This document shows, piece after piece, positions 134 through 23,081 of a DNA stretch of 23,081 nucleotides. The notes under the pieces are model-generated. The model was not told where the DNA came from. It made no database searches and was given only the letters and a program-made list of their open reading frames with translations. This stretch comes from Terramyces sp. JEL0728 (taxonomy: Eukaryota > Chytridiomycota > Chytridiomycetes > Rhizophydiales > Terramycetaceae): NCBI GenBank assembly GCA_027603945.1, contig JADIIU010000174.1, forward strand, positions 1 through 23,081, written 5' to 3'. Position 1 is the stretch's first letter. Each line of letters starts with the position of its first letter. A program made the translations under genes and the position numbers.

Positions 134-1946
134 ATGAAAATTCTAATCTTGATATGTACAGTAATTAGCTTGAACTTGAATTCCTTCAACCTCAACCAAC
201 TCAATCAACAAAAAATGAAACTAGTAAATATCCTCAAACAAAAAAAATTACAGAACGTAAACCAGTCGATGGTATTTGAACATCGGATCGAACGAATAGA
301 GGACCTGACAAAAGTACTGACAAACACACTGGAGATCTACAGCAGCATCTTGCAATCCAAAACCATTGATGATCTCGATAATTACGTTGAACAAGAAACT
401 TCATTAATCATTGAGCAATTTCAGAAATTAGTAATTAAAGCAAAGACAGAGAAATTGGAAAACGAACAAGACAGACTGGATAAAGAAAATAGCAGACAAA
501 ATAAGACTGATAATGTCCTGGGTGGATTGATTGATGATTTATCAGAAAAATCACATAATCTGGAAAAGGAATTGAAACAGAACGAGTTTATGAAGCAAGA
601 CCAGACCGATATCGAAACATTAAAGAAAAAGAATGATTCGCTGATTAATTCAGTTGGTGATTGGTAATCTTGGCTAATGAAAGGTATGTAAAGAACAAGT
701 TGGGGGACCAAACAGGATTCTATGAAGATGAAAAATTACTGGATGATTTCAGCTCACTCCTTTTCGGTTGCTTTGCAGTCGGCTTACTATGCTACATTCT
801 CAATTTACCCACGTTCTTTGGATTTGTACTGGCTGGAATAGTCTTATCCACAAACGACTTGATTTTCAATATCATTCAAATTGAAACGCTATCAAGAGGA
901 TTAGGAATTATCTTTATCATGTTCTTTTTAGGATTAGAGTTCAATATACAAAAACTGAAAAAAGTATGGTCGATATCACTTGTTGGATCTTTGATTTTAC
1001 TGCTATCTACAATTGCGCTGACGGTGTTGATTGGAATGTACTTTAAGAATGGGTACTTGCCAAGCATTATTATTGGAGAATGTCTATTTCTCAGCAGTAC
1101 CGTTATTGTACTTTCGTTCCTTAAACAAAATGAAATGGACCGTGTTTATGCAAGGAATATTGTTGGAATTCTAGTTGCCCAGGACATTATGTTGGGATTG
1201 CTGATTGCAATATTACCAGTTCTGCAAAAGAATCAGGATATCATGATTAGTATACTCAAACTGCTAGGATTACTGTTTGTTTTTCTGGGAGTGTGCTACC
1301 TGATAAAAACACCAATCATACAATTGCTAACGTTCAACAAGAAGAATTACACTCTGTTTATGCTGTCATCCATATCCACTTGTTTACTACTGATCAAGCT
1401 TGGAGAATTTTTCAATCAGTCTGTTGAATTAAGTTGTTTTGTATGTGGAGTTATTATTGCGAGTAGCCCAAAACTATCACATGAAGTACAGCAATCACTG
1501 CAGCCCATTCATTCATTCTTTAGCAGTTTGTTTTTTGCAAGTATCGGATTGCATATTTACCCATCATTCTTGTACAGCGAAGGACTGTTGCTGCTACTCC
1601 TTACGCTACTCATCCTTGCACTCAAAATATTCATAGTGTTCTTTGTAATGTACTTTGTGTTCCGTCTCAGTACGAAAAACAGCTTTCTAATTGGAATTGG
1701 ATTGGGACAGATTAGTGAATTCACTTTTGTGCTTGCGTCGAAAGCAAAGAGGTATTTTTAATTAACGGCAGTTCTAATGTGCTGTCGAGCGAAGTTTACT
1801 TTTTGCTGCTGGGCATAACGACAATCAGTATGATTTTCAGTCCGTTTTTGTGGAGCGTGTGTAAACGGATGGGGATGATGGATGAAGTGCAGTTTGGAGA
1901 GATTAGCGATCATTTGGTAGTTGATTTTCAAGACAAATCCGATTAA
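134..1946 (+). CDS. Kef/TMCO3-type monovalent cation:proton antiporter
   Basis: Exons 134-663, 684-1751, 1772-1946; two 20-nt introns, both phase 2; about 590 aa. The protein opens with a hydrophobic signal-like segment (MKILILICTVISL), followed by a charged, coiled-coil-prone region to about residue 175, then roughly a dozen membrane helices of the sodium/proton exchanger (CPA2/Kef) fold. Visible family marks are FFLGLEFNIQKLKK and GLGQISEFTFVLASKAK, and the last exon adds another helix (VYFLLLGITTISMIFSPFL). The layout signal peptide, coiled coil, exchanger matches animal TMCO3 and its fungal relatives; the probable role is K+ or Na+ exchange for protons in an endomembrane or the plasma membrane. 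A longer reading starting at a TTG (35) is not credible; ATG 134 gives the signal peptide. Without splicing, the frame breaks at both introns. Family call is firm; ion and compartment are inferred. Confidence 0.88.
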
Positions 1947-1956
1947 TGGTGCTGAT

Positions 1957-1962
1957 AATAAA
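1957..1962 (+). terminator. poly(A) signal AATAAA of the Kef-type antiporter
   Basis: AATAAA begins 11 nt after the antiporter stop. The convergent Tim8-like gene ends only a few bases further on, so the antiporter transcript must run into that gene's 3' end. Confidence 0.6.
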
Positions 1963-1966
1963 CTAT

Positions 1967-1972
1967 TTTATT
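1967..1972 (-). terminator. poly(A) signal overlapping the Tim8-like stop codon
   Basis: On the minus strand AATAAA contains the TAA stop codon (plus-strand 1968-1970) as its bases 3-5. Confidence 0.55.
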
Positions 1973-2210
1973 TCTGAAACTGCTTCATAATCTGCACAGT
2001 CGAATCAAGAAACCGTTCCGTACAATTAACAACACAAATCTGGTCGCTTTTGTCCATCTGATTCTTGATTTTCAACACACACTTGGCGAAACACAATTCG
2101 CTAATGTCCATTATTTGGTGATGAAATATCTGTGATTGCTGTAAATCTCCAAGCGATTTTGAGAGTTTTTCTTGGTCTTTTTGTGGGAGGTGGTCTAATG
2201 TTACATTCAT
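1968..2210 (-). CDS. TIM8: Tim8-like small TIM chaperone of the mitochondrial intermembrane space
   Basis: Intronless, 80 aa, typical of the Tim8/9/10/13 family. It carries the diagnostic twin CX3C pair: C40-x3-C44 (CFAKC) and C59-x3-C63 (CVVNC), 14 residues apart, within two amphipathic helices. The stretch CTERFLDSTVQIM after the second pair resembles Tim8. Small TIMs assemble as hexamers (Tim8-Tim13 or Tim9-Tim10), are oxidised by Mia40, and escort hydrophobic precursors from TOM to the inner membrane. The ATG at 2210 is the only plausible start. The gene is convergent with the antiporter: the two stop codons are separated by 21 nt. Membership of the small TIM family is firm; Tim8 rather than Tim9/10/13 is a judgement from the flanking residues. 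Confidence 0.85.
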   Translation of the reverse strand: MNVTLDHLPQKDQEKLSKSLGDLQQSQIFHHQIMDISELCFAKCVLKIKNQMDKSDQICVVNCTERFLDSTVQIMKQFQK

Positions 2211-2378: not shown

Positions 2379-2935
2379 ATGGGATGCGGAGTGTCAAAAA
2401 CAGTTCCTAGAAGAGAGCGCACAGCAGCGGATATCATCTTTGACAAGTTTGACAGAGACGGATCTGGCAAAATAAACAACAAGGAATTCAAACACCTATG
2501 TTTCTCAATGGGCTACAACCTAACTGACCAAGAAGTAGATATCAATATGAAGCTGCTAGATTTATCAGGTGACGGGCAAATCGAGAGAAAAGAATTCATG
2601 AAATGGTGGAGGCAGAATAACAAGTTCAGTCAGTTACACTGGAACTCTGAACGACTAAAATTGTTGGAAGCCTTCACTGAAAAATTCAAAACATACGACA
2701 AAGACAATTCTAATACTATTGATCACAAGGAATTCAAAGAATTGCACCGCGGTTTGTTGGAAGAAAATCTTACCACTCTGCCGCTTGATTTGTGTATCAA
2801 AGTAATATTGAGTTTATGTAGGAATTGGATTCTAATAACGATGGAAAGATTGTTTTTTACGAGTATGTCCGGTTTATGGTCAACAAGGATCAGAAAGATT
2901 TGCAACTCAAATCTACAAAGAAGGGTGTATTATAA
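2379..2935 (+). CDS. N-acylated four-EF-hand calcium-binding protein (calmodulin/CBL-like)
   Basis: Exons 2379-2801 and 2822-2935; one 20-nt phase-0 intron; 178 aa. Four canonical 12-residue EF loops are present: residues 25-36 (DRDGSGKINNKE), 61-72 (DLSGDGQIERKE), 107-118 (DKDNSNTIDHKE, Asn instead of Gly at loop position 6) and 144-155 (DSNNDGKIVFYE). The fourth hand appears only after removal of the intron; reading through gives an unrelated hydrophobic tail. The N-terminus MGCGVSK fits a myristoylation signal (Gly2, Ser6) with a neighbouring cysteine for palmitoylation, so membrane attachment is likely. This suggests a calcium sensor coupling Ca2+ to a membrane target. The exact orthologue is not recognised; calcineurin-B-like or calcium-dependent-kinase-like regulators are possible. 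Confidence 0.85.
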
Positions 2936-4494: not shown

Positions 4495-7182
4495 ATGGAA
4501 TCTCAGAACCAAAAAGAGGAAAACCCTCCTATTCAGCCAAACCCAAGCAGATTTAGTGAAAAGAGAGAGCCTAATAGTGCTGGCGGACTTAAAGATTCAA
4601 ATGTTTCGCTAGATACGACCAGTCCGTATTACAGTTATCAAATGGATCGACAATCTTTTACCCAAGATGGAGCTTATTGGGCACATAGAGGCAGCAGAGG
4701 TATCCGTTTAGGTATATCTGTCGTTAATATAGGCGCTTCCGAACGAGATTTTGCACTATCGCGACACAGCTCAATGTCCCAAGATATCCAAGAACTGTCA
4801 CTCGCTGAAAAGATGGCAAATGTTGTTGGGTACAGTTATGTTAATTTAGTGCCCCTGTGACATCTGAATCAATGGCGGACCCAAAAACCAATATTGACTC
4901 CAATGAATTGGCAAAGGAACTTCAAGATATATTCCACGCAATGGAACAATGTATTCAACTCCGCTCTGATTATATGCACTTGTCGCTTCAATGTCCTGGA
5001 GATAATCCCAAAGATTCTGACAACTGGGATGTCTACCCAAAACCGCCTGCACCTAGCTATCCCCCAAAAGTAGATCGAAGCGGAAACTTCATACCACCAG
5101 CACCTGAAGAAGTGTTTGATTTTGCTGCTGTTCGTATTCCTGAAAAATACGATTTGCTGTACCACATCACAAATGGCGTTTACAATATCTATGGATCCGA
5201 GGAAGATATAGTGCAAGGAAAGGAAATTGCAAACATCCCCACCATCAAAAAGTATTACCAAGATTTGGACTTTATGCAAAATTTTATTTCTGATGGCCCT
5301 TCAAAGTCATTTGCCTACCGTAGATTAAGATACTTGGAGTCTAAGTTCCAAATGTACTTGATGTTGAACGAATATCAAGAAATGGCAGACTCTAAAGGAG
5401 TACCGCATCGGGATTTCTACAATGTGCGTAAAGTTGACACTCATATCCATCATTCTGCTTGTATGAATCAAAAACACTTGCTTCGGTTTATCAAATCAAA
5501 ATTAAAGAAAACTCCAGAGGTGCTAATGGCTAATGCTAGGATATCTGTATTCTTAGAGACAACAAATATTTGACTTTGAAACAGGTTTTCGAAAGTTTGA
5601 ATCTGACTGCATATGACTTGTCTATCGGTACGCTCTAATTCATTCTAGATACCTTGGATATGCATGCTCACAAAGATTCTTTCCACAGATTCGACAAGTT
5701 CAATTTAAAGTACAACCCAATTGGCGAATCCCGTCTGCGTGAAATCTTTTTGAAAACGGACAATATGATCAAAGGAAAGTATTTGGCAGAGCTCACCAAA
5801 GAAGTAATCAACGATCTGGAGCAAAGCAAATATCAGATGGTTGAATGGAGATTATCCATCTACGGCAGATCCAAAGATGAGTGGGACAAGCTTGCCAAAT
5901 GGGTTGTGGAAAACAAATTGTTCAGTAACAATGTCCGGTGGTTGATTCAAATTCCTCGTTTGTACAATTTATACAAGAAAACCGGGATAGTAAAGAATTT
6001 CCAAGATGTCATTACCAGTATTTAGTTTTTTACATAGATATCTTTGAACCATTGTTTGAAGTTACCAAAGATCCAAAATCACATCCTGAGCTGCACGTTT
6101 TCTTGCAGAGAGTGATTGGGTTTGATTCTGTTGACGATGAGTCGAAAGCCGAGAGAAGGACATACAAAAAGTTCCCACCTCCGCTAGAATGGAACATTGA
6201 CATGAATCCTCCTTACTCCTACTATTTGTACTATATGTATGCAAACATGGCTGCTTTGAACTGCTATCGCCAAAAGAGGGGATTCAACACATTTGTCCTC
6301 CGACCTCATTCAGGGGAAGCCGGTGATACAGACCACTTGTCATGCGCTTTCTTGACTTCGCAGAGCATCAGCCATGGTATCCTGTTGCGTAAGGTGCCAG
6401 TCCTGCAGTACTTGTTTTATTTGGACCAGATTGGTATTGCCATGTCTCCATTGTCCAACAATGCGCTTTTCTTGACATATGAACGAAACCCATTCCACAT
6501 GTTTTTCCAAAGGGGATTAAACGTGTCTTTGTCGACCGATGATCCCTTACAATTCCATTTCACAAAGGAACCATTGATTGAAGAATATAGGTAAGTGAAT
6601 ACTAACCCTAGCGTTGCTGCTCAAATCTTTAAGCTTTCTGGAACCGATATGTGCGAAATTGCAGCAAACAGTGTCAAGCAGTGTGGATTCGAACACCAAA
6701 TCAAAAAGCGATGGTTGGGAGACAACCTTGATATAGCAGGTGTATTTGGCAACGATATTCACAAGTCCAATGTTCCAAATATTAGAGTGTCATATCGCTA
6801 CCAAACTTTAATGGAAGAGCGTGTAATGGTTCTCTCAACTTTGCGTTCAATGAAAGAAGAAGTTGACAAAGAAACCCCGAAACCCCACCAAACTTACTTG
6901 CCTGTTGAACCGATGCTTGAGCACTTGGTGTTGCAATCCCCCTCATTCTATGGCGGGTCTCCAAAGAACATTATCGGAAAAGAAGAGTCATTCGGATCAA
7001 GCCAGCTTCAGAGTCTATCATTAAACGGGCCTGCGTTACCAGTTGGGTCTGGCGGGTTTTCAAAAGGAAGTTTTGCTGCTGTAAGCATGATTGCAGAAAG
7101 GGAACAACGCAAGCTTGGAGTAGATTCAGTTTTAGATACAAACTTTGAATATGAAGACGATGCGGATGAAATTTGGGATTGA
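4495..7182 (+). CDS. AMD1: AMP deaminase
   Basis: Six exons: 4495-4829, 4850-5519, 5540-5627, 5649-6017, 6038-6590, 6612-7182; introns of 20, 20, 21, 20 and 21 nt; about 861 aa. AMP deaminase hydrolyses AMP to IMP and ammonia in the purine nucleotide cycle and sets adenylate energy charge. The catalytic domain is intact and close to the family: zinc-binding HxH in [20 protein letters not shown] (His310, His312), [12 protein letters not shown] near 578, and [17 protein letters not shown] with the catalytic/zinc Asp pair near 655-656. All five junctions restore conserved residues, for example [13 protein letters not shown] and [16 protein letters not shown]. The N-terminal 200 residues are Ser-rich and poorly conserved, as usual. 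The start is the first in-frame ATG; an earlier in-frame reading begins with TTG. Confidence 0.96.
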
Positions 7183-7244: not shown

Positions 7245-7250
7245 TTTATT
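7245..7250 (-). terminator. poly(A) signal overlapping the stop of the first 7TM gene
   Basis: On the minus strand the stop is TAA followed directly by TAAA, so AATAAA begins at the second base of the stop codon. Confidence 0.55.
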
Positions 7251-8214
7251 AAGAGTTTTGCTGCTCCGAGTTTGCTCTTGACAGCTTATCAGTTTGCATC
7301 CTTCTTACTTCGACCGTCCGCTTTGCTTCTATGGCTTTGTCATCTTTCTTTATAAAGCTATTGTGTTTGCTTGACTGATTTGCCGAGGTAATTTTCATAT
7401 CCCCATTATGCTTACTGGCCAAAATGAACATTGCACCGTGGCTGTTGATTGCTGAATCAATGCAGATGATAGGAAACAAGACTGAGGACATGTTCCACAA
7501 ACCATTCGAGTAAATATTGCCCATGTCTCTTTCATAGAGACATGCACCTTGAAGCAAAAACAAAACTCCGGTAAATGTCCACCTGGAATTAGAAAATATT
7601 ACACTACAGGAATAAATAACCGAATCAGGCGCTTTTTCCCACTGGCGATTTTGGCGTTCCACGCTAACTGAGCGAGTAAAATGAAATAATACAAGTCAAA
7701 ATACAGACAAGAAATCACGGACGCGGCATCACTGTAGTTTCCTTCAATGGTCCAACATATCCCCGCATCCATTACCATGCAAGCTGTTTTGCCAACGCAC
7801 GTAAGGATCATGGTGATTGTCAAGACGACTATATCCAAATTGAAATAGATTTTCTTTCCAAGTAAATTGAATTCGATGGCTTCAATCGGCCTACATTAGC
7901 AATACGCACCTGATCATTCTTTTCCGATAGTACAGCGCTACATCGCCTAAAAAGAACGCCAACCAGTCAAATATCTTGTATATCTTGTAAATCCGTCCTT
8001 CATCTGGGTCCCCAACCGAATCCATCACGGTGTACATGAGAACTGTAACAACTTTAGATATATTGCAGCAGATGGCTACCACGATAACGTACCACATTAT
8101 ACTTTTTTTGAATGAGGTGAACGTCTCAACAATCAAAGGGAGTAGCCAATAGGCGCCAAACAGAGCCGATGCAAACCAAGTAAAGTCATCTCCAGCTACC
8201 CAAGCACCACCCAT
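7249..8214 (-). CDS. Seven-transmembrane protein, receptor-like (7TM-A)
   Basis: Exons on the minus strand: 8214-7910, 7890-7603, 7582-7249; introns of 19 and 20 nt (7891-7909, 7583-7602), both phase 2; about 308 aa. Seven hydrophobic helices can be counted: near FTWFASALFGAYWLLPLIV, IMWYVIVVAICCNISKVVTV, IFDWLAFFLGDVALYY, IVVLTITMILTCVGKTACMV, LYFDLYYFILLAQLAW, WTFTGVLFLLQGACLY and MSSVLFPIICIDSAI, followed by a basic Lys/Ser-rich cytosolic tail of about 60 residues. The short N-terminus would be outside the cell. No signature of fungal pheromone, carbon-sensing or microbial-rhodopsin receptors is recognised (no retinal lysine in helix 7). The overall plan resembles the second 7TM gene at 20087. 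An upstream ATG at 8398 opens another frame and is not used. A GPCR-like receptor is the likeliest reading; ligand unknown. Confidence 0.75.
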
Positions 8215-8709
8215 GGGAAAATAAAAGAAGATTTTCAACTGACGTAAAGGGCAAATCGGAAGATTTTGCGTCGGAGATTAACGTAATACTAATATGGAAT
8301 AACTCTGGGTAACGAGCGTTCAAATCTGGCCGGCAATATATAGCCGCTGTGTATCTTATTTTACTCCAGAAAAACGTGCAGAAGCAGAAAAAGGACATGC
8401 CTTTGAAAAGAGCGGAATAAAAAATGGTAAATCTAGGATAACGCCCGGAAATGTTCCTTTCGATCGAAGCAAGAATGCGGCGCTATATGTGATTCAAAAT
8501 CAATCAACTAGAATGCTTATCACCGTTAACACGAGGAATTCAGCTATGCGCGAAATACCTACGATAGCGCTTGGATTCTGCGTAGATTAGATAGTATCAA
8601 TTAAAACTACAAGATAACTGCCTCGTGATGTCTGGATAAGAATCTCATCCATATTTTCAAAGTCATGCATTTGAAAAGTGGACCATGAATTGAAAGCAAT
8701 ACCATTATA
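8215..8709 (-). other. Intergenic region: 7TM-A promoter and 3' flank of the methyltransferase gene
   Basis: About 495 bp without a convincing gene. A 70-codon ORF with a real ATG (8398 down to 8186, minus) overlaps the 7TM-A start in another frame and looks like an untranslated leader or chance ORF. A CRE-like TGACGTAA lies at about 8240-8247. No tRNA or repeat seen. Confidence 0.4.
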
Positions 8710-9741: not shown

Positions 9742-9879
9742 ACCCGAGAAGTTTATTGTTCTTTAAAAGAGTGTAGCTGCTCTCTTTCTGGGTTGTATCT
9801 TTATATTCCCATAATCCAAGTTCCCATGCTCTCCAATATTATAGCTTGCTAATTTTTTTCCAAAATCCCGGACAATCTA

Positions 9880-10603
9880 ATGCAAAGAGATTCCATTCTC
9901 TCTTCTCTGTACGGATCAGTGAAAACCAAAGTACTATTAATTAACCCAGTTTAATACAATCTACAACGAAATAAACACCGCTCTGTCGTCCAGATCAAAG
10001 AGAAACAAAATAGTTTCAACACCAGGCAAAGTGGTGAAAAAACGTGTTAAACAATTTGATACTCCTAAACGAAAAAGAGTTGAAGAGGAGGAGGAGGAAG
10101 AAGCAGATCGATTGAAAACAATAGAAAAAAAGATCCAGTGGTTGGTAGATCAGCAGCTAACTAATTTTGACGGATTCCTATCACCAAAACTCACACCTTC
10201 TAGTATAGATAGAGAAAGGGACAGCCAATTTGAAATAGGTACGCCGTCCAAAAGTACACCAAGTACCCCAAATATCGAAAATGTTTCTCCAATAGATATA
10301 ACATCGCCTTTACTAGATATACCAATTCCACCGCCTTTGCCCCCATCAATGCCAAGCACACCGTATATTTCGTCGCCACATACTACATCTACGTTGGCAG
10401 CAGTTAGACATGCGACCCCAATGCCAATGAAGACTTTATTAATGGAAATGAAACAAGTAGTACTTAAGCCTGTACACCAGCGAGTACTGACACCTATGAA
10501 AGAACGGACAGACCATGAGACTTTGCTGAAGAAAGAGCTGGAGAAGCGGCTATTGTTTATTCAACAGGATGAAGAAATTGAATGTGAGCAATGGGAATCT
10601 TAA
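9880..10603 (+). CDS. Ser/Thr-Pro-rich protein of unknown function, possible CDK substrate
   Basis: Exons 9880-9930 and 9950-10603 with a 19-nt phase-0 intron; 234 aa. The first exon encodes only 17 residues (MQRDSILSSLYGSVKTK); without it the frame has no ATG and would have to start from GTG. The N-terminal 45 residues form an amphipathic helix (FNTIYNEINTALSSRSKRN), then a KR-rich, nuclear-localisation-like patch (KKRVKQFDTPKRKR), an acidic run of seven Glu, a short coiled coil, and a disordered centre with more than ten SP/TP sites (GTPSKSTPSTP, SPLLDIPIPPPLPPS). A charged C-terminal helix ends the protein. SP/TP clustering and basic patches suggest a nuclear or spindle protein regulated by proline-directed kinases; that is inference. 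I do not recognise the family. Confidence 0.7.
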
Positions 10604-10834: not shown

Positions 10835-11423
10835 ATGCCGGCTTATCACTCATCGTTTAACCAAACCGATGCCAAAATCATTTCCATCCCGATTCTTCCA
10901 ATCAAGACGAAAGCAAGGCAATTTGCCCCAAGTAACTTTATATTAATTAGACCAACTGGAAGAAGGAGATGACATTATTGATGAAGGTACTACTCGTTAA
11001 TGTTAGCTCTCGGATTATTCAGAGCAAACACGTTTTTCAGAAATTTCGATATCAAAGGAGGTGCAGACAGGTTGTTGATTTACTTGACCCTGTACATCCA
11101 AGAATGCTTAAACAAACTACAAAAATTACCAAATTCCATTGAAGGTTCCTTTTGCTAATCCAGGATCAAAGATCTTGCAAACCCATGCGGTTCAAAACTT
11201 TCCACTTCCAGGAGATGCTACTTTTCCATTGAATTCAATGTTTGAGAAACCAATGACCAGACAAGATGCAGAGTTCTTGAAAGGATACTTGACTCAACTG
11301 AGACAAGAGTTAGGACAGCGATTGATTGAGCGCATTTACGAAGAAGACAAACCTAGCAAGTGGTGGATGTGTTTTTCTAAAAGAAAGTTTATGGGAATGT
11401 CTGGGGTAGGCACCTTTCAATAA
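10835..11423 (+). CDS. ARPC3: Arp2/3 complex subunit 3 (p21-Arc)
   Basis: Exons 10835-10931, 10951-10986, 11007-11144, 11164-11423; introns of 19, 20 and 19 nt, all phase 1; 176 aa against about 178 in animals. The start MPAYHSSFN is the classic ARPC3 N-terminus. Other conserved blocks are DDIIDEALGLFRANTFFRNF, ADRLLIYLTLYIQECL, NFPLPGDATFPLNSMFEKP, RQELGQRLIERIYEEDKPSK and WWMCFSKRKFMGMS. Exon 2 is only 36 nt. ARPC3 links the Arp2/Arp3 heterodimer to the complex that nucleates branched actin, used in endocytic patches and, in zoosporic fungi, in amoeboid movement. The stop TAA is inside AATAAA. Each intron is needed: unspliced reading hits stops. Confidence 0.96.
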
Positions 11424-11500: not shown

Positions 11501-12945
11501 ATGTTTATATTTCTTGTAACTTTTGCAGCAGCAATCGGAGGACTATTATTCGGATATGAAATAGGAGTGATATCGCAAGTACTCGGTATGCCATCATTCC
11601 GATCAGCATTCCAGCTCGATTCTTACATCGAAGGTCTTATCACTTCGACCTTTCTCCTTGGCTGCACCGTAGGAGCGATAATCGTGTCTAGGATAGCAGA
11701 CACACTCGGAAGAAAAAAGTCAATCATAATCGCTTCAGTACTCTTTATTCTTGGTGGACTATTACAGAGTTTATCCATCAAAATGTTTTATATTGGAAGA
11801 ATAGTATCCGGATTGGGGATTGGGATTTTGTCTAGTGTCGTGCCATTGTTTATAGGGGAAACAGCCCCGACGTCTATCAGGGGGCAGTTGATTTCTGTCC
11901 AACAGCTAATGATTACGCTTGGAGTATTTCTAGCCTCGGTCGTCAATGCTTGGATAATTTTGAATTTCAAGGGTGATTTTGAATGGCAGTTGGCACTTGG
12001 TATCCAAGTAATCCCCTCCACATTCCTGTTAGTAATCATGTTTTCAATGCCTGAATCTCCTCGATGGCTCGCAAACAATAATCTAGAGTCAGAGTGCTTG
12101 AAAACATTGATAAGGTTGCGGGAAGGGTACACTGATGAAGAAATCGAGCAAGAGTACCAAGAGTTGTTGAATTGCATAAAGATGGAGCGACGGATTGGCG
12201 AAGGAACTTTTAATGAACTGCTTGAAAAAGGTATTGTAAATAGAGTGTGGTTGGCGGTATTAATACAAATGTGTCAGCAATGGACAGGTATTTGACACTA
12301 ACGAGGAATCAATGTAATTTTATACTATCAAAATACCTTGTTGCAAGGGATGGGGTTAGACGCAGAGCAAGCTGCTATACCGTTTACTATTGCAAACAAC
12401 TTTGTCAATTTTATCGCAACGTTTCCTGGAATATACCTTGTTGACCGGCTGGGGAGGAAGCAGCTGCTGGTGTTTGGAGGAATTGGAATATTCATTTCCC
12501 ATTTCCTGGTATTTGTTTTTATATCTTTGGGCAATGCAGGAATGAAGGGGATGTATTATCTTGCCATATGCTCGGTGTACCTGTTTATCTTTTCGTTTGC
12601 GAGTAATTTCAACTAATGTAGGTACCTGGGGGTAATTGAAGCTAATGTAGACCTATTGCATGGATATACCAGAGCGAGATCTTTCCACTACGTGTCAGGG
12701 CAAAAGGAACTAGCATTGGAACCATTTCAAATTGGGTAAACAATGCTGTTATTGCATTAATAACCCCACTTTTGATTAGAATGATTAACGAGCAGATTTA
12801 TCTTATATTTAGTGTTTGTGGGGTTGTGATGGCGTGGTTTGCTTATAAACACGTACCAGAGACCAGTGGCAAGTCTCTAGAAGAAATGGATCTCATTTTT
12901 GGCGATGGGTATTTAGGACTCGATGGCCATTCATTCATTGAATAG
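11501..12945 (+). CDS. Sugar/H+ symporter of the major facilitator superfamily (sugar porter family)
   Basis: Exons 11501-12287, 12306-12602, 12622-12631, 12651-12945; introns of 18, 19 and 19 nt; 462 aa, at the short end for the family because it begins directly with TM1 (MFIFLVTFAAAIGGLLFGYE). Signatures in order: DTLGRKKS after TM2, GRIVSGLGIGILSSVVPLFI with GETAP, PESPRWL in the central loop, QQWTGINVILYYQN in TM7, VDRLGRKQ, STWGPIAWIYQSEIFPLRVR in TM10, and PETSGKSLEEMD at the end. It imports hexose or a related sugar across the plasma membrane; substrate not predictable. The third exon is only 10 nt and supplies STWG of the conserved TM10 motif. A GTG at 11468 in the same frame is not used as a start here. 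AATAAA follows the stop closely. Confidence 0.94.
12603..12650 (+). other. Twin 19-nt introns flanking a 10-nt coding microexon
   Basis: Intron gtaatttcaactaatgtag (12603-12621), exon gtacctgggg (12622-12631), intron gtaattgaagctaatgtag (12632-12650). The introns are identical except for four central bases. Splicing both gives FA-S-T-W-G-P-I-A-W, the conserved sugar-porter TM10 motif; skipping the 10-nt exon shifts the frame. Confidence 0.85.
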
Positions 12946-12951
12946 TTCCAT

Positions 12952-12957: not shown

Positions 12958-12985
12958 TTTACGTGAATTGGTTTGTTTGTGTTGA

Positions 12986-12991
12986 ACGCGT
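12986..12991 (+). promoter_or_regulatory. MluI cell-cycle box-like element before the Bud4-like gene
   Basis: ACGCGT lies 12 nt before the ATG at 13004 in a 58-bp intergenic gap. In fungi this core is bound by MBF for G1/S expression, which would suit a septation gene. One hexamer close to a start codon is weak evidence. Confidence 0.25.
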
Positions 12992-13003
12992 TTTTTCACC
13001 GAA

Positions 13004-15516
13004 ATGCCATTAGACGATATACCAAACCTAAGGGAGCGCTCAGCAGTGTCAAGCAGCCCATTCTTTATCAATGACGAAAACAAAATCAAGAAAAGCTCTA
13101 GTATGCTGAATTTGCCAGAGAGTGAAGTTTCGGTAAAGTCCAGCCCGTTCTTCAAACTCGACCAGGAACGCAAAAAGGAATCTCTCAAACGCACAATATC
13201 CTTGGTAAGTATTATTGATTTAGAAAACTCCAAAAAAGCAGCAAATGCCAAAAAAAGAGTCGATGTTGGACCTGTTGCGAAACTTTGATCATACTGAAAA
13301 GAAGGAGCGCATTGTGTACCAATCTAGACCGCCATTGCTGAAAAAAGAAAAGGCATTAGAGAAAGCATTTGGAAACGAAGTTGTCTACGAAGAGGGCGGC
13401 AGTTTGCTGGACCGACTAAAGAAATTTACAAACACGTCAAAACCAGTTGAACCTAAAACGCTTTTTACCAAAAAATCTCCAGAAACGGTTGGATCAAAGA
13501 ACAGTGTCGATACCAGCGAGAAAGAATCCAATTGTGAAATCGTACATGAACAAAACGGGTCAATCAAAGACAGGCTAAACAAGTACCACACTAGCCTTTT
13601 ACAGAATGAAACGCCAGCCAAAGAAGTAACAAAGCCAAATCAAGAAAAAGCTGGATTGCAAAACGAGGAGACCCTATTGGTGAAGGATATCCAGAAACTG
13701 GCAATGGGGGAAAAGAATTCAGAGATTGTGTATGAAGAAGGAGGCTCGCTATCTGAACGACGAAAAAAATTCTTGAATGATACCAATCCAAGAATTCCAG
13801 TTGCCTCTTTTTCAACTCCAATTACCAAAAGTACCCTTCAAGGAAAGAAACCATTTGAAGAAACAATTAATCAAATTGAATCTGCTGGTGCTTTACTCTG
13901 TAAAGTTGAAGGAAATGCAAAAGAAGCTGTTGATAAGATTGAAACGGGCGTATCAGAAATGGACATTCCAAAAACAACATCCCCTGAACTTGAATCTAGT
14001 AATGTCCCAACTCAAATGGAATCTGGAGCAATCAATCTCGATGTAAAAATCGCTAAAAATAGTTTCCTGAAATCAGTTTGGGATCAATATTCGAGGAAAA
14101 AGACCAGTGGATTACCAATTTATGGGGTTTAAGCAATGTTGAGCGGCAGTCAGTCGAGCCTGACTATGATGAAGTATCTGTTGTTGAAGAACAAGAACTG
14201 GAGCAAGAACCAGATTTTAACACTTCACTAGAACAAATTGATCATATCATTGATTCTTATGACGGCCAAGGAAAGAAAGAGTGTATCCTTGATGTTTCCA
14301 AAAGTTCAGATACACTCAAGCAAAGCAGTGACGAATTAAGCATCCCTAAATCTGAAATCGCTGAATATCGAATGAAGAAATCAGTTTCATTTGCCTCTGC
14401 TTGGAAAGGTGATTTGGAAAACACTAAAATGGTCTGCAGCGATCCAGCGTACTTTGATGAAATCCACGAAAACGTTGGGAGATTGCTAATTAAAAGTAAT
14501 TACCCTTAACATAGTTACAAATATCCACGATGTATTTATTGCCAGCGAATATGATCGAGTCATTGACTTGGAAATCTGTCAAGGAGTAATGTGCCAAACA
14601 TCACCACCATATACACTAAAGCAAAGCCAAACAAGTTTGTCAGTAGATTGGGAAACTCAGATATCTGTAGTTCCGAATACTCCAATTCATTTCAGACTCA
14701 AAGTACGCCAGGTTTTACAAAACGAACAGGGAATGAAGCAAAGTTCATCAAGCAAATCAACCCTCGGGTCTGGAATCATGCAAATGTCCAGTAAATTCTT
14801 GACAAAGTTCAGTCAAAACAATCTTACACACTCTGGCTCGCTTTCTTCGATTACATCCGCTTCTTCAGCGAATTTCAAAAAAGAACCGATATTCGGATCA
14901 GTCCAAAATATGCGAACAGGCCACTTTATGGTGTGCAATGTTCAGGAATGGGTAACAGAAATGTCAAACCAAGTCAGCACTGCCGTTTTTGAACTATTCG
15001 AGATTGATTTCTCCAAACCGAAAATGTTTTCATTCAAAAAAACAGATAATGTAATTTCAATTGGTAAAATCACCAGCCAAGTATTTTTCATGAAAAGTAT
15101 TTCACACGGAAACGAATTGCTGCCAATCAGCCTTTCTGAATACAAGGATGATCTGCAAACTGTCGCACTGCACTCTAAAGTTTGGAAAGAAGGCCGTTTG
15201 AAGCAACTGGGCGGAGACTGCAGTGAATGGAAATCTAGATTTTTCAGACTAATTGGAACATTTTTGATTGGATACCACGAAACAGTAAATTAAACTAACA
15301 TAGACATTGGATGTAAAAACAAAGATTTGTCTGGGGCAATTGGAAGCAATCAAGTTCAATGATAGAGACGACTTTTTCTCTTTGGAATTTAGAGATGGAG
15401 AAATTATAAAGTTCCAATGTAGCGAGGATAGACTGGTCAAGCATGAATGGATAGAAGCTATTGAAGATTCTCAAAATATTTTAGCTGACAATCCGCTACC
15501 TGCTTGGGCACAATAA
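13004..15516 (+). CDS. Bud4/Mid2 anillin-like septation protein with C-terminal PH domain
   Basis: Exons 13004-13204, 13224-14042, 14063-14495, 14515-15284, 15304-15516; introns of 19, 20, 19 and 19 nt; 811 aa. The first half is disordered and charged, with two SSPFF motifs and three related blocks of the form E-I/V-V-Y-E-E-x-GS-L-x-x-R-x-K-F. The second half is an anillin homology region: GRLLIKITNIHDVFIASEYD, SVDWETQISVVPNTPIHFRLKV, HFMVCNVQEW, IGKITSQVFFMKS, then a PH domain starting GRLKQLGGDCSEWKSRFFRL and GTFLIGYHE, with EWIEAIED in its final helix. The GGDC-x-x-(F/W)K-x-RFF stretch is very like yeast Bud4. Such proteins scaffold septins and the contractile ring at the division site. 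Intron 14043-14062 was chosen over other frame-compatible options because it alone fits the intron pattern of the window. TAA lies inside AATAAA. Confidence 0.85.
13371..13772 (+). repeat. Three diverged copies of a 19-residue block in the Bud4-like protein
   Basis: Copies at about 13371-13427 (NEVVYEEGGSLLDRLKKF), 13527-13585 (CEIVHEQNGSIKDRLNKY) and 13716-13772 (SEIVYEEGGSLSERRKKF), spaced 156 and 189 nt. A weaker fourth relative (ERIVYQSRPPLLKKEK) precedes them near 13306. Conserved acidic-hydrophobic start and GS-L-x-(D/E)R-x-x-K-aromatic end suggest a repeated short binding motif. Confidence 0.65.
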
Positions 15517-15517
15517 A
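15512..15517 (+). terminator. poly(A) signal containing the Bud4-like stop codon
   Basis: AATAAA includes the TAA stop (15514-15516). The convergent transcription-factor gene ends 82 nt further on. Confidence 0.55.
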
Positions 15518-15598
15518 TTTATATTTTATGTTTTGACAGTTAGACTTTCTCAATCACCACTGGAAATCGTTGCCAAACTTTTGATAGGAAATGAAATG

Positions 15599-17383: not shown

Positions 17384-17651
17384 AAAGATTCAAAGGCACA
17401 AACGAAATCTAAATGGGGAAGCCACAACTTGATATGGTTACACAACTGATTCGAAAATGATCAGATTCAAGAGAGTCGTCGACTAAGTCCGGGACTCTTT
17501 ATAGCTGCATTGTCCACACAGCTTGATAAGAGTTTTTCTAATTTGCGCTCTAATGCGGGGTTTGCTTGAAAAGCTGTGAAGGATCAAGTATATTGCAAAC
17601 AAATGACGGGCATATCCAAATTCCACTAATGTGGTTATTTCTTTAAAAGAA

Positions 17652-17657
17652 TTTATT
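17652..17657 (-). terminator. poly(A) signal containing the stop codon
   Basis: Minus-strand AATAAATAAAT covers the last two codons and the stop; the second AATAAA contains the TAA stop at plus-strand 17653-17655. Confidence 0.55.
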
Positions 17658-18657
17658 TATTTGCAGTTGATTGAATCTTAAAGTACTTTTCCTTGTTCTT
17701 GACTACTCTGTAAACGACAAATCCAATCAGACAAACGGCTGGTATGATGGCAAAAAGGAACTCCTTGGAATAAAACATGAAATCATATGGCTGAGTGTGT
17801 ACTCTGAAATTGGATTTACTGGTAACGTTAAATAATCCTCCCATTCCATGAAAATCAACTTTTCCAGTGGTATTCCCGTTGAAACTCAAATACGCAGAGT
17901 TGATCCGACTAATTAGTGATACACTTTCAGCGACAAAACTAGCTTCATAGCTTGCAAAAACCATATCACCATACACTTGGGTATTGTTTTTCCATTCAAA
18001 TTTACTAATCCCACTGAAATTGCAGTTCCTGAACACAGAGGTGTAATCAAGTCCTAAACTACCATTAAATGCTCCATCTTGGAATAAAAGGCTTCCGTTG
18101 TAAAATCGTAACAGTTCCGATCGATAATCTGGAAAAGTACCATTAAATGACCAATCACTGAGTAGAAACGAACTAACAGTCCCCATAAATTCTCCAGAAA
18201 TGTTTGTTGCATTTTGAAATTGAATCACTGGATAGATTGATTGATTCATAAGGGCTTCCCCAATCGCAATAGGGTCATTCATCTGAAAAATTGAATCCAA
18301 ATTTGGAGCTTTACCAAATCCGACAAAATGGTTCAAACCAATACTGACTGACACTTGCTGAGCATGGATTTGCGCATTTCCTTCAAGTTGGAGAAAGTCT
18401 GAAACATTTGATTTTCCCTCTCCGCTCCAGCTAATATTGTTCATACAAGTCATGTCGGCTTGAATCGCGTCGTACAAACGGCTACTAAAATAGTTTGGAT
18501 CTACTTCTTCTGGCATAGCTACATTGAGATAGGTAGGATGATAAGGATCATAATTATAACCTGGTCGCATTTCAACAGTTTTCGAATTGTTCATTGGAAT
18601 TCCGAATTCTAGCGGTACATTAAAGTTGAAATCAAACAATTGAACTTGTCCCTGCAT
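17653..18657 (-). CDS. N-glycosylated single-pass membrane protein of unknown function
   Basis: Intronless as read, 334 aa. The N-terminal 290 residues carry 13 N-x-S/T sequons (for example NGT, two NGS, NFS, NNT, NVT), a density typical of an extracellular or lumenal domain. One hydrophobic helix follows (FLFAIIPAVCLIGFVVYRVV), then a short basic tail (KNKEKYFKIQSTANK). This is a type I layout, yet the N-terminus MQGQVQLFDFNFNVPLEFGI shows no signal peptide. I searched the 200 bp up to the neighbouring gene for an upstream exon and found none with an ATG, although an acceptor-like CTAATCAG sits 2 nt before the ATG. The ectodomain has many short beta-prone segments; no family recognised. Two TGAGTCA elements lie upstream. 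Confidence 0.7.
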   Translation of the reverse strand: MQGQVQLFDFNFNVPLEFGIPMNNSKTVEMRPGYNYDPYHPTYLNVAMPEEVDPNYFSSRLYDAIQADMTCMNNISWSGEGKSNVSDFLQLEGNAQIHAQQVSVSIGLNHFVGFGKAPNLDSIFQMNDPIAIGEALMNQSIYPVIQFQNATNISGEFMGTVSSFLLSDWSFNGTFPDYRSELLRFYNGSLLFQDGAFNGSLGLDYTSVFRNCNFSGISKFEWKNNTQVYGDMVFASYEASFVAESVSLISRINSAYLSFNGNTTGKVDFHGMGGLFNVTSKSNFRVHTQPYDFMFYSKEFLFAIIPAVCLIGFVVYRVVKNKEKYFKIQSTANK

Positions 18658-18729
18658 GGCTGATTAGTTTTTTGTCAAGTTTCTGCCACGAAAGTCTTTG
18701 TACGAATGGCTTGGTGGCTTGGTTCAGAT

Positions 18730-18771
18730 TGAGTCACAAACTTGTAAAATCACAGACAGCAATCTGAGTCA
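18730..18771 (-). promoter_or_regulatory. Two TGAGTCA (AP-1/Gcn4-type) sites
   Basis: TGAGTCA at 18730-18736 and 18765-18771, 35 bp apart and 73-108 bp upstream of the membrane-protein ATG at 18657. The motif is palindromic. About three are expected by chance in the window, but the pairing in a promoter is suggestive. Confidence 0.3.
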
Positions 18772-18859
18772 TCTGGGTTAATTACGAGTCTTTCTACCAA
18801 CACTGTAAACTTTTACCGTGGATATTCCAATACAATAACGACTTGAGTTGTATAAAATC

Positions 18860-18865
18860 TTTATT
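18860..18865 (-). terminator. poly(A) signal overlapping the AMPK beta stop codon
   Basis: On the minus strand the TAA stop (18866-18864) is followed directly by TAAA, so AATAAA overlaps its last two bases. Confidence 0.55.
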
Positions 18866-19816
18866 AAACTGGCTTGTATAAAACGGTGGTGATAAACTTG
18901 TTAGGAAGCAGTTACCTTTTTTCTGTATCTGCTGGTACTAGAAATAGCCATAACTCCATCGCGAATAGAACAGGCATACAGATGATTTAAAGATACATGG
19001 CTAGGTACAGGTAGAATATACGGGTCATCTTGCGTAATTGATTTGGAGTTTAACAACACTTTTTGTAACTGCGCAGGTAAAGATGGCGGCTGTTTATCAC
19101 TTCGCATCAGCGGGAAATTGCACAGATACGATTCCACAGGACTATCAGGAATTTCTATTGTAAGAAAAAAGTACCTTTTTCCATTCCAAAATCATCAGCA
19201 ATATCCTGCAATCCATCTTTTACCGATCGTCCTTCTTCGTCCTCTACACTGATATAATTAACCAAATTCCCATCTTGGTCTTCTTCAACTGGTAAATCCT
19301 CGCTACATTTCCATTCGTCGTCGACAATAAACTTTAAAGAATGCTTGCCTGGTGGCATATCGACAATAGTAGTGAAATCTTCGGTTGATTTTGATAATCT
19401 GATTTTTCGTTTCCAATTATTGAATGATCCAGTTAAATGAACTACCTGGCCTGATGTTAATAGCAAATACCAGTGTGCGACCATACAACCATTACAGGTA
19501 TATTCTTTTTCACAGTTCCCATAGGTTGCAATGGAGCCAGACCTAGCGAACCAAACTGATGAATAATCTTTGAGCTGTTTCTGTACGGTTTCTCCTTGGC
19601 TGGTTGAACAAAATTATCATTTCTTGTTATTCTTGGGGGAGATGGTGGAATATCGAGTTTCTTTTCAGTATAAGAACCTATGGAGCCAGCTATTTGCAGG
19701 GGCGAGCCTGCAACTGGCGATTCTGAAATTATAGTTTTGTTTTCCCTTGATGGTATTTGGACTGGGATTGATTTTGTTGACGAGGGAGGAGTGAGTTGTG
19801 ATTCTGCATTTCCCAT
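18864..19816 (-). CDS. AMPK/SNF1 kinase beta subunit (Gal83/Sip2-like)
   Basis: Minus-strand exons 19816-19471, 19450-19175, 19154-18916, 18896-18864; introns of 20, 20 and 19 nt; 297 aa. N-terminus MGNAESQL fits N-myristoylation. Residues 105-190 form the CBM48 glycogen-binding module: VMVVWSHTGQVVHLTGSFNN plus W, then MPPGKHSLKFIVDDEWKCSE. The C-terminal interaction domain that binds the kinase and gamma subunits is complete: EIPDSPVESYLCNFPLM, PSHVSLNHLYACSIRDGVMA, and the terminal beta strand RYRKKFITTVLYKPV. That final strand is recovered only by a last intron (18897-18915) leading to a 33-nt exon; the unspliced frame ends as KKVTAS and loses the conserved tail. The subunit anchors and targets the energy-sensing kinase. 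The stop overlaps AATAAA. Confidence 0.95.
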
Positions 19817-20086: not shown

Positions 20087-20887
20087 ATGTTCAATCGCGG
20101 CCATTTTGCCTTGTTCTCTAGTGGGTTTGCACTATGCATAATAATCAAGCAATTTGCGATAATATTATCAATACCATCTCGTAGGAAATTTGGATTTCTG
20201 TTACTTTTATGGGCCGTGTATATCATAATCCAGCTGATTAATCAATGGAGTCTATTGGAACAGCGACAAGTGCCAGGAATAGCATGGGCCATGTACTGTT
20301 CTACTATTTTGTACAGTGCATGTTGCACTTGGCTGTTGCATATTTCAATGCAGAGGTAACGATAATTAACAAGATATTTAGCAATCAACCATACAACTCA
20401 ATTCAAAGATATAATTAGAAAAGCAACATTCGGCGTAATGGTTATTGTATTTATCCTCAGATTCGCGCGGACAGTTTTAGTGATTCAACAAAATGCTGGG
20501 ACTGCGTTCTTTCCCGGTGCTTCGACCTTGCAAGTAATTACTCTAATACCAATATTTCTAATACGGATGCTGTATGATATCGCAGCAGCAATTAAGCTCT
20601 TTGAGCAATTCGGCGATTCAGCACCAAAAAAACAAACTTATTTTTATCAAATTGGATATTCACTTTGTTTGGAGATCCTATTGACTTTGTTCTCTATTGT
20701 TGTTGCACTACTGGAAGCGATAAGTTATACTGGGGATGATGTTGCCTTTATTGATTGGATTATGATCTCTTGGGCAATAGGAGAGCTGCTGGAGCAATCC
20801 CAAGCATTGAATACATTATTCAACGACACTCAGTATTTCGTACCGCTGGATACAAGCAAATCTATGGTTATAATCACTTTGGATTAA
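20087..20887 (+). CDS. Seven-transmembrane protein, receptor-like (7TM-B)
   Basis: Exons 20087-20355 and 20374-20887 with an 18-nt phase-2 intron; 260 aa. Helices: FALFSSGFALCIIIKQFAII, FGFLLLLWAVYIIIQLI, IAWAMYCSTILYSACCTWLL, VMVIVFILRFARTVLVI, VITLIPIFLIRMLYDIAAAI, LCLEILLTLFSIVVALLEAI and FIDWIMISWAIGELLE, followed by a short tail. After helix 3 comes HISMQRYLAI, placed like the DRY region of GPCRs, though this may be coincidence. The plan (short N-terminus, seven helices, short loops) parallels the gene at 7249-8214, suggesting a family of receptor-like proteins. No known fungal GPCR class is recognised. A further 17-nt intron near the end would extend the protein, but it lacks the intron pattern seen elsewhere and was not adopted. 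Confidence 0.75.
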
Positions 20888-21107
20888 CGACTGGAGAGAT
20901 GTTGGAAATACCAATCTACAATGCCAAGTGGGCAGCGACAAATTAATTCACTAATGGAATGGCAGCAGCTGTTTGAAATATATTTCAAATATTTTCGATT
21001 ATATTGCTTTTTCTTTGATGATTCCAAAAAGCATTTGCTCTTTCAGATTTGCTCGGCACCGAAATCCTTTCAGTAAACACGGATTTTCACTCGAGAAATA
21101 GAAAGAA

Positions 21108-21971
21108 ATGAAAATTTTCTTGTTTGCACCAGTGGTATTTGCTCAATGGAGCCGTATCGTGAACAACAATGTTGTCTCTGGACCGTCATCATCCACCCAA
21201 ACAGCAACTATAGAGGATTGTGCAAATGCATGTTCAAACCGACAATGTTTTGTATTTGCATTCAACGGCGGTACTTGCAACATTTACAACTCACAATCGG
21301 TTCAATTCACTGCTCAAAATGGGTGGACTACTGGATTTGGCACTACATGTCAATTGACTAATCCAACTTCTGACGACCCAAATGGAGCAATTAACTGCAA
21401 TACACCACTCAAACCAATAGCACCTCCTCAGTAATTTGATTAATAATAGATCACCGGCTAGAACTACTGTTCAAGCAGTCCCAAAGCCAACTGCTACGAT
21501 TGACATTACTACCACCACTATCCTCACTACCACTACAATCCTCACTACCACTACAATCCTCACTACCACCACTACCACTACTGAATCAACAACAACGTAA
21601 GTATGTTTAATCGCTAGGACTGTTGGAGTGACTATTGATGTAGCCTCAACCACTATCCAACCAACAACCAAAGCAACTCTAGCAAACACCTCAAACTCTT
21701 TATCAAGGCACCACTAATCACTGTAATAGTTATTGTTGCAATAGTCCTGGTACTCATTGGACTATATATCTGCTTTAAAAAACCCTCGAAACCAAAAGCA
21801 GATGTGAGCAAATTAAAAATCCTCAAAGAATCAAAAGAAGACATTAATAGAAAAAACTCTTTAGAATCAGTAATTAGCGAAATACCAAATACTCCAATTC
21901 AAGTTGCTAGTGATATGGAACCAGAAGCAAAGTATGAGAATGATGATCAACCTAGATTTAAAGTTGAATAA
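21108..21971 (+). CDS. Surface protein: signal peptide, PAN/apple-like domain, Thr-rich stalk, TM helix, cytosolic tail
   Basis: Exons 21108-21430, 21450-21596 and 21618-21971 (introns of 19 and 21 nt), with one unresolved frame problem in the last exon. The start MKIFLFAPVVFAQWS is a signal peptide. A compact cysteine domain follows (CANACSNRQCFVFAFNGGTC), resembling PAN/apple or WSC-type carbohydrate-binding modules. Next is a Thr stalk with TTTTIL repeats and more Ser/Thr sequence, then a TM helix (LITVIVIVAIVLVLIGLYIC), KK, and about 60 charged tail residues ending at 21971, where TAA lies in AATAAA. Stalk and TM frames differ by one base between about 21640 and 21712, where no canonical 18-21-nt intron exists; a 47-nt intron (21597-21643), a GC-AG intron (21682-21707) or a sequence error could explain it. 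The architecture recalls fungal cell-wall stress sensors. Confidence 0.65.
21508..21561 (+). repeat. 18-nt tandem repeat, three copies
   Basis: Units 21508-21525, 21526-21543 and 21544-21561; the last two are identical (ACTACCACTACAATCCTC), the first differs at two bases. They encode TTTTIL hexapeptides in the Thr-rich stalk, then decay into further ACC/ACT codons to about 21582. Confidence 0.85.
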
Positions 21972-21972
21972 A
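21967..21972 (+). terminator. poly(A) signal containing the surface-protein stop codon
   Basis: AATAAA includes the TAA stop (21969-21971) as its bases 3-5. It supports this frame as the true C-terminus. Confidence 0.55.
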
Positions 21973-22144
21973 AAGATTATGTTTATTTACTTTTCCACAT
22001 ATTAGTCAATAAACACAAACCATCATTACTGTGCTCAGTTAAATTTGGTAACCCCTATTTCTTTCCCTTTCACATGTGCAAATATATCAGCATTGTCGTC
22101 GCTTTTGGTAAAGAATTCAACCCGTCCCTTGTTTGTATAAAGTC

Positions 22145-23081
22145 ATGGTGAATTTTTGCAATAGTTATTGTTATAGCCAATTGGAAAGTCACGATAACTA
22201 TTCGGAACCCTGCTTCTGCACTATATTAACAGTGCCACCCTTTTTTCAAATTGCTTCCAATTCATTGGATAAATTTGTTTCAGCATTTGTGACTGTTGAT
22301 AATTTTCACCCAAAAATGCAACAAGCTAATGAAATACTACAGCCTTTAGCAAAGGATATCTCAACATACAAAATATTGAATGCCATGCTGAATGCCACAA
22401 CAGACATAAATTACGAAGGATTCACCCAAACAAGACAAGTGGTTATACAAGATATACTTGCATCCGACAGCTTAGAAGAATTGGCCAACAAATACGACAA
22501 TTTATTTCTTATGCCTATGAGAGCAAGAGGTGGAAGACCAAGCTCAAGACCCTCCAGCGCTACTCAGCGAATCCAGGAACAGGATTATACTTCGCACTCT
22601 TCGTCTTCAAAAAATGACAAGTTTAAAAGTGATGTGCGACAAAGGTATTTGATATTAATGCTAGGGATAATAACACTTGTGTATTAACTGGGGAAGAAGA
22701 CAAATTTACAGAAAGCGATACAAGATTTGAAGTAGCTCACATTATTCCTCAATCTCTGTTAAATGCAAAATCTGATAACGAAGAAAGGAAACAAGGTAAA
22801 TATGCAATTCGTTCGTTCATCCTTCGTTTGTGTCCATGGATACCCGCAGATTTCTTTGAAAATCTAGATGTTTGTGAAAATGCAATATTGTTGAACAAGG
22901 AAGCTCATCGATTCTTTGGTGCATTTGAATGGTTTATTGTTATGGAAAAAGACTCTAATAACAACACAATCTACAAAGCAATGCAGGTAGTAGAAAATGG
23001 TTTGTTGAAAAAAGCAAACATTACTGGAAGAATTGTAATTGAACATTATGCTGGAAGAGATTTAACAGTATCATCATACAA
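22145..23081 (+). CDS. HNH-nuclease-domain protein, 3' end beyond the window
   Basis: Exons 22145-22644 and 22665 to the window edge; one 20-nt phase-2 intron; 305 residues visible. The first exon encodes an N-terminal domain I do not recognise and a Ser/Arg-rich linker (RGGRPSSRPSSATQRIQEQD). The second exon opens with RDNNTCVLTGEEDKF and contains an HNH_2-type fold: first His in VAHIIP (codon 22738-22740), Asn in ENAILL (22879-22881) and second His in EAHRFFG (22906-22908), giving the H-N-H triad. HNH domains bind a divalent metal and cut nucleic acid; HNH_2 proteins are widespread but uncharacterised in fungi. Domain call is good; biological role unknown. TATAAA at 22136-22141 sits almost on the proposed ATG, so a later start is possible. 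Confidence 0.78.

Follow-up and report, generated by a model that had tools for sequence, protein, structure and literature searches.

Very short introns have been described in a handful of eukaryotes. Those of the chlorarachniophyte nucleomorph of Bigelowiella natans measure 18–21 nt and those of the mikrocytid Mikrocytos mackini 16–17 nt (PMC10245619), while introns of 15–16 nt occur in the heterotrich Stentor coeruleus (PMC10245619; PMC9505925). Paramecium and Nyctotherus have introns of about 25 nt, very short genome-wide (PMC5014332), and the mean in Cryptococcus neoformans is 63 bp (PMC8476143). Here, we analyse a stretch of 23,081 nt (the window), which is one contig of an assembly of 15,016,339 bases and 231 contigs, and in which a preliminary description had placed 28 introns of 18–21 nt. 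We consider it very probable that they are spliceosomal introns of U2 type and that the introns of their eukaryotic host, which is most likely a zoosporic fungus or something closely related, have as a population been reduced to about 20 nt. Ultrashort introns as a kind are already known; their occurrence in a probable fungus is probably new.

The length range is almost identical to that of the B. natans nucleomorph, and in both cases introns are many and narrowly distributed. However, the nucleomorph is what remains of an algal nucleus, and its roughly 300 genes carry more than 800 introns (PMC10245619), whereas the genome considered here is 15 Mb in size and has an estimated 8,000–19,000 introns. 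The introns of Mikrocytos mackini are likewise extremely uniform and short, but they number 224 in a parasite whose spliceosome is strongly reduced (PMC10245619), whereas the three splicing proteins sought in the present genome are whole. Paramecium and Nyctotherus are ciliates with introns somewhat longer than these (PMC5014332), and ordinary fungal introns, such as those of C. neoformans, are about three times longer (PMC8476143). No fungus with such introns was found among the matches listed in the open-licence literature, in agreement with the preliminary description.

Intron lengths in the window and across the genome

Reading out the window sequence confirmed all 28 proposed coordinates. 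Every intron begins with GT and ends with AG, and the lengths are as had been described: 18 nt in two, 19 nt in 11, 20 nt in 12 and 21 nt in three (Table 1). The donor triplet is GTA in 25, GTG in two and GTT in one. A YTRAY branch site complementary to U2, with its A 4–7 nt before the last G, is present in 23 of the 28, compared with a mean of 2.2 and a maximum of 8 in 2000 shuffles of the intron interiors. In the genes with a family match, removal of the introns other than 21597–21617 restores a conserved frame, the third feature expected of U2-type introns.

Lengths were then read in a sample of 222,081 bases (GC 0.39), comprising the window and 20 further stretches of the same genome. A first scan retained every GT..AG pair of 10–150 nt whose removal joined two 150-nt open frames that were otherwise unjoined; there were 41 hits at 19 nt, 77 at 20 nt and 33 at 21 nt, compared with 8–30 at adjacent lengths. 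A second scan, which also required a branch motif near the 3′ end and extended to 200 nt, returned 4, 3, 30, 39, 13, 7 and 1 hits at 17 to 23 nt, respectively, and a mean of 1.7–3.1 per length above 40 nt, where the highest single length gave 7. Between 18 and 22 nt, it yielded 92 hits. Two controls that used different end letters yielded 9 and 7, which means that a small number of the 92 are chance matches. With additional coding-potential filters, 72 hits of 18–22 nt were obtained against 1, 10, 3, 4 and 2 in five controls. The sample thus displays one narrow length class, a single peak at 18–22 nt, with no second, longer class seen. The range of 18–21 nt read in the window widens by one nucleotide in the sample.

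The pattern GTAA N6-8 YTAAY N1-2 TAG occurs at 3183 sites genome-wide, against 211 for the reversed control, a 15-fold excess (48 sites against 3 within the sample). Together with the peak in the scans, this excess supports uniformly tiny introns beyond the window. The pattern recalls 33 of the 92 second-scan hits, 45 of 282 introns predicted by a gene finder and, within the window, 5 of 28. Dividing the excess of 2972 by 33/92 gives ~8,300 introns, and dividing it by 45/282 gives ~18,600; the genome total is about 8,000–19,000. The gene finder accepted introns of 17–23 nt only, so that its length distribution is truncated from the outset, and it was trained on motif-scan hits that partly overlap the window introns. 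It recovered all 28 of the latter and called three extra ones, which we judge spurious. Across the sample, it predicted 130 genes with 282 introns (~2.2 per gene, false introns included) and a median intergenic gap of 177 bases.

Splice signals and splicing machinery

As read from the sequence, the typical intron is composed of a GTA start, 13–15 nt from the first G to the branch A within YTRAY, and 5–6 nt from there to the last G. Among the 92 second-scan hits, all of them selected for the presence of YTRAY, 86 have the branch A at index 13–15 after the first G, and 82 have the last G 5 or 6 nt beyond it. Their donors have A at +3 in 96%, A at +4 in 62%, G at +5 in 24% and T at +6 in 58%. In the 264 gene-finder introns of 18–22 nt, position +5 is T in 46% and G in 19%, the top donor hexamer is GTAATT (45, against 13 for GTAAGT), and the acceptors are TAG (165), CAG (64), AAG (30) and GAG (5). 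Intron interiors have a GC content of 0.30 compared with 0.39 for the sample, and T reaches 0.46–0.56 at positions 5–9 of 20-nt introns, making them U-rich upstream of the branch site. What is unusual on the substrate side is the donor-to-branch spacing of 13–15 nt and the weak G at +5.

The preliminary description had suggested that the spliceosome might be unusual and proposed comparing U1, U2 and U6 small nuclear RNAs (snRNAs) and several splicing proteins. Of seven parts sought, U2, U5, Prp8, U2AF65 and Slu7 were found and are conventional in sequence, which does not bear out that suggestion; U1 and U6 were not found. The U2 snRNA scores 140 bits with Rfam, and its branch-recognition sequence is intact in the alignment; the U5 snRNA scores 86 bits, with its loop intact. 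Two tRNA genes (1901–1982 and 2330–2411 of sample stretch L006, both 55.8 bits with Rfam) lie downstream of the U5 gene. The tested Prp8 product, encoded on contig C31, has 2265 aa and matches PDB Prp8 over 2–2247. Its five introns measure 19, 22, 21, 21 and 21 nt, and none can be left in without introducing a stop. Two further Prp8 intron candidates were rejected: one of 30 nt is coding, its ten residues being present in the PDB chain, and the true protein should accordingly be 10 aa longer; the other, of 72 nt, sits within an open frame of 1409 codons. A permissive gene finder (15–120 nt) proposed many introns above 23 nt in sample stretch L007, and since these two Prp8 candidates failed, such predictions were not used as evidence. 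U2AF65 rises from 251.7 bits unspliced, below its curated cut-off of 310.3, to 334 bits spliced. Slu7 forms two pieces of 139 and 104 bits unspliced and a single match of 289 bits spliced, covering the whole profile. Because the branch site lies so close to the AG, we had predicted the loss of Slu7 or U2AF65, wrongly, as both are present. GT–AG introns and a genome with U2AF65 are features shared with ordinary fungi.

U1 was not found in the genome by Rfam, although the assembly may be incomplete and the Rfam model may miss fungal U1. U6 was found neither by Rfam nor by two ACAGAGA-based patterns; the assembly may lack it, or the gene may be divergent or intron-split. The two Rfam matches to U6 belong to a single coding gene present in two haplotypes. 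The one match to the first pattern lies in a coding-like stretch and has no similarity to U6, and the letters of the three matches to the second pattern are unlike the U6 consensus.

These introns would be removed from pre-mRNA by lariat splicing on the major spliceosome at the YTRAY branch A, an ordinary catalytic core with conserved U2, U5 and Prp8 presumably accepting a 14–16-nt loop and a 5–6-nt tail. Catalysis itself should be possible, as has been proposed for Stentor with a loop of 10–11 nt (PMC9505925). The donor hexamer (1–6) and the U2-paired branch site (about 11–16) are some 4–6 nt apart, and U1 and U2 snRNPs (small nuclear ribonucleoproteins) probably cannot co-occupy one intron for this reason. 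The donor is probably passed from U1 to U6 before or while U2 docks; a rapid or obligatory handover is favoured because a pre-spliceosome with both U1 and U2 bound should be hard to form. There is too little room between the branch site and the AG for a polypyrimidine tract, and U2AF65 may instead bind upstream of the branch site, where the introns are rich in U. It is tentatively conceivable, though we lean against it, that the standard A complex is dispensed with and the 5′ splice site is taken (almost) directly by U6/U5 with U2 marking the branch site, U1 being brief, altered or dispensable. If so, this bypass would have left its trace in the weak G at +5, and a spacing of 13–15 nt would be the minimum on which the activated core can work here.

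Alternative explanations and lineage

Several observations weigh against a population of U2-type introns uniformly near 20 nt. Lengths were read in 222 kb only, 1.5% of the genome, and the genome-wide pattern fixes length, spanning 19–22 nt. Five of the 28 window introns lack a branch motif at 4–7 nt from the last G, and 92 of the 282 gene-finder introns have no branch motif at all, some of the latter being false introns. U1 and U6 were not found, as stated above. In the stricter scan, the real count exceeds one of five controls at 23–60 nt (33 against 51, 58, 64, 40 and 5) and two of five at 61–200 nt (185 against 245, 234, 327, 153 and 87). Finally, intron 21597–21617 does not restore a conserved frame: with these 21 nt removed, the PAN gene remains broken and its protein ends at 21717. 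An intron of 47 nt (21597–21643), with the same donor and an AG farther downstream, is the sole join tried that opens the whole frame, and it adds a membrane anchor. An error could account for this, as could a rare long intron or a choice between two 3′ splice sites that would produce a secreted and an anchored form. The statement that no intron exceeds 21 nt therefore stands for 27 window introns, and this one is possibly 47 nt.

The best-surviving alternative is a mixed population, in which mostly tiny introns are accompanied by a minority of ordinary longer ones in untranslated regions, in fast-evolving genes or with other signals. The 47-nt candidate, a 24-nt candidate in sample stretch L022 and the retention of U2AF65 point in this direction, and because some controls at 23–60 and 61–200 nt fall below the real count, a few longer introns may exist. 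However, the counts in both ranges are lower than in most controls, and the 30-nt Prp8 candidate proved to be coding; we regard a mixed population as unlikely.

Less likely still is a source other than a fungus, namely a different eukaryote with a compact genome. In favour of such a source, Prp8 scores higher against the human chain (4444 bits) and the 8ro0 and 8xi2 chains (4320 and 4248) than against S. pombe spp42 (3963) and the 3jcm chain (3313), the 9l5r chain giving 3936. Among the 37 of 57 listed open frames examined in the sample, a 1201-codon frame (L016:6-3608) has an Ig domain of CFAP65/HYDIN/ASH type, although this domain matches further ASH-type families as well, another (L020:6891-8489) has the class C receptor domains 7tm_3 and ANF_receptor, and a third is cytosolic carboxypeptidase-like. 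Against such a source stand fungal-type genes, namely a Zn2Cys6 domain protein, a fungalysin M36 (484 bits) and OPT transporters, and flagellar genes are possessed by zoosporic fungi too. The fungal origin assumed in the preliminary description is thus likely but not proved, and the Ig-domain, receptor and carboxypeptidase-like frames suggest a zoosporic fungus, from a flagellated lineage.

If the frame breaks were sequencing or assembly errors, a GT...AG could have been picked to mend each of them; such a pair can often be found near any frame break, and the method is circular for single introns. Against such an artefact stand the sharp peak of the length-blind scan, the fixed spacing of the branch motif, the 15-fold genome-wide excess, the rise of curated family scores upon splicing and the alleles. 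Two haplotypes are assembled as separate contigs (C199:1-10756 and C111 from 30116) with 98.5% identity over 10.7 kb, which indicates that the DNA source was heterozygous or mixed. Nine gene models with 16 introns were built on one haplotype; they assign 7,989 bases to coding sequence, 329 to introns and 2,438 to neither. A MAFFT alignment gave 121 mismatches (76 coding, 5 intronic and 40 other) and eight indels, of which none is coding, two are intronic (each of 1 nt, 21 versus 20 nt) and six lie elsewhere. Had a 1-base indel fallen in an exon, one allele would be broken. Both haplotypes carry the introns, and both genic indels fall within them (chance ~0.0016, given 329 intronic and 7,989 coding bases). 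A BLASTN check agreed: it counted 114 mismatches, and of its 17 gap openings two are intronic, 15 lie elsewhere and none is coding. An artefact is therefore extremely improbable. It is equally hard to credit that the segments are eliminated as DNA or skipped by ribosomes (internal eliminated sequences or translational bypassing): excised segments of 20–30 nt exist as eliminated DNA in ciliates, but the GT–AG ends, the U2-complementary branch site, the presence of the splicing factors except U1 and U6, and the fungal-type gene content argue for spliceosomal introns.

Genes of the window and significance

The preliminary description held that intron removal yields family-consistent proteins, and AMP deaminase, ARPC3, the sugar transporter, AMPK beta and others do match families. 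Seven of ten spliced proteins scanned had a Pfam match and three had none; AMP deaminase was compared with PDB instead. Four intron-bearing genes, among them 9880–10603, are without family support; the Pfam scan covered three of these (7249–8214, 13004–15516 and 20087–20887). Residues 143–756 of the AMP deaminase product align to PDB AMP deaminase 2, and the four covered junctions of five are gapless. In ARPC3, residues 1–169 cover Pfam profile positions 1–171 of 173, and the alignment with PDB 1k8k_E extends over 1–173, interrupted by a few gaps of one or two residues. The AMPK beta product can be aligned to PDB AMPK beta-2 through the last residue; two of its three junctions are gapless and the third is poor. 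The spliced sugar transporter covers the entire Sugar_tr profile. Its microexon is placed by the alignment of fsfastwgpiawiyqse with ffgiswgpvlwvmlpe, and intron, exon and intron are packed in the 48 nt of 12603–12650. An IVYEEGGSLxxRxKKF-like motif is repeated within the 811-aa protein (13004–15516), which may be anillin/Bud4-like.

Table 1. Genes, microexon and introns of the window
Feature	Position	Strand	Description	Evidence
Na+/H+ exchanger-like gene	134..1946	+	590 aa, two introns	Pfam PF00999, E 1.7e-45
EF-hand protein	2379..2935	+	178 aa, one intron	EF-hand_7, E 2.4e-28
AMP deaminase	4495..7182	+	861 aa, five introns	PDB 26xc_A, E 1.3e-222
Membrane protein	7249..8214	-	308 aa, two introns	no Pfam match
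234-aa protein	9880..10603	+	one intron	no family support
ARPC3 (Arp2/3 complex subunit 3)	10835..11423	+	176 aa, three introns	Pfam, E 8.3e-73
Sugar transporter	11501..12945	+	462 aa, three introns	Sugar_tr, E 7.3e-112
10-nt microexon	12622..12631	+	flanked by two 19-nt introns	encodes TWG of conserved WGP motif
811-aa protein	13004..15516	+	four introns	no Pfam match
AMPK beta subunit	18864..19816	-	297 aa, three introns	Pfam, PDB AMPK beta-2
Membrane protein	20087..20887	+	260 aa, one intron	no Pfam match
PAN-domain surface protein	21108..21971	+	two introns as read	Pfam PAN
HNH_2 endonuclease-like gene	22145..23081	+	one intron, continues past window end	Pfam, E 1.6e-08
Intron	664..683	+	20 nt, GTAATCTTGGCTAATGAAAG	sequence
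Intron	1752..1771	+	20 nt	sequence
Intron	2802..2821	+	20 nt, no YTRAY	sequence
Intron	4830..4849	+	20 nt	outside PDB-matched part of AMP deaminase
Intron	5520..5539	+	20 nt	gapless junction vs AMP deaminase 2
Intron	5628..5648	+	21 nt	gapless junction; CTAAT 10 nt before last G
Intron	6018..6037	+	20 nt, no YTRAY	gapless junction vs AMP deaminase 2
Intron	6591..6611	+	21 nt, GTAAGTGAATACTAACCCTAG	gapless junction vs AMP deaminase 2
Intron	7583..7602	-	20 nt	sequence
Intron	7891..7909	-	19 nt	sequence
Intron	9931..9949	+	19 nt	sequence
Intron	10932..10950	+	19 nt	ARPC3 alignment
Intron	10987..11006	+	20 nt	ARPC3 alignment
Intron	11145..11163	+	19 nt, GTT donor	ARPC3 alignment
Intron	12288..12305	+	18 nt	sugar transporter alignment
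Intron	12603..12621	+	19 nt	sugar transporter alignment
Intron	12632..12650	+	19 nt	sugar transporter alignment
Intron	13205..13223	+	19 nt	sequence
Intron	14043..14062	+	20 nt, no YTRAY	sequence
Intron	14496..14514	+	19 nt	sequence
Intron	15285..15303	+	19 nt	sequence
Intron	18897..18915	-	19 nt	gapless junction vs AMPK beta-2
Intron	19155..19174	-	20 nt, no YTRAY	junction within poorly aligned stretch, AMPK beta-2
Intron	19451..19470	-	20 nt	gapless junction vs AMPK beta-2
Intron	20356..20373	+	18 nt	sequence
Intron	21431..21449	+	19 nt	sequence
Intron	21597..21617	+	21 nt as first read	doubtful; alternative 21597..21643, 47 nt
Intron	22645..22664	+	20 nt	sequence

In their anatomy, these introns share with those of Stentor a fixed branch A with a 5-nt tail (PMC9505925). 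Stentor also has conventional snRNAs, as U2 and U5 are here, and lacks a long-intron class (PMC9505925); none was seen in the 222-kb sample. GUAAUU is the donor of Stentor's commonest intron (PMC9505925), and GTAATT is likewise the top donor here. Stentor has no strong branch consensus and a loop of 10–11 nt (PMC9505925), in contrast to the clear YTRAY and 14–16-nt loop of the present introns, which belong to another lineage. In human test constructs, the minimal productive donor-to-branch distance is given as 46 nt (PMC11291888), compared with 13–15 nt in this genome, where Prp8, U2AF65 and Slu7 are whole.

Such genomes will be mis-annotated by any gene finder or aligner whose minimum intron length exceeds 20 nt. 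The short-intron cases cited above come from ciliates, relict nuclei or parasites whose spliceosome is reduced. If the organism is culturable, its lineage would be nearer than those cases to organisms with solved spliceosomes, and it would provide a system in which to probe which contacts set minimum intron size, whether U1 and U2 need to be bound at the same time, and how U2AF functions when no tract follows the branch site.

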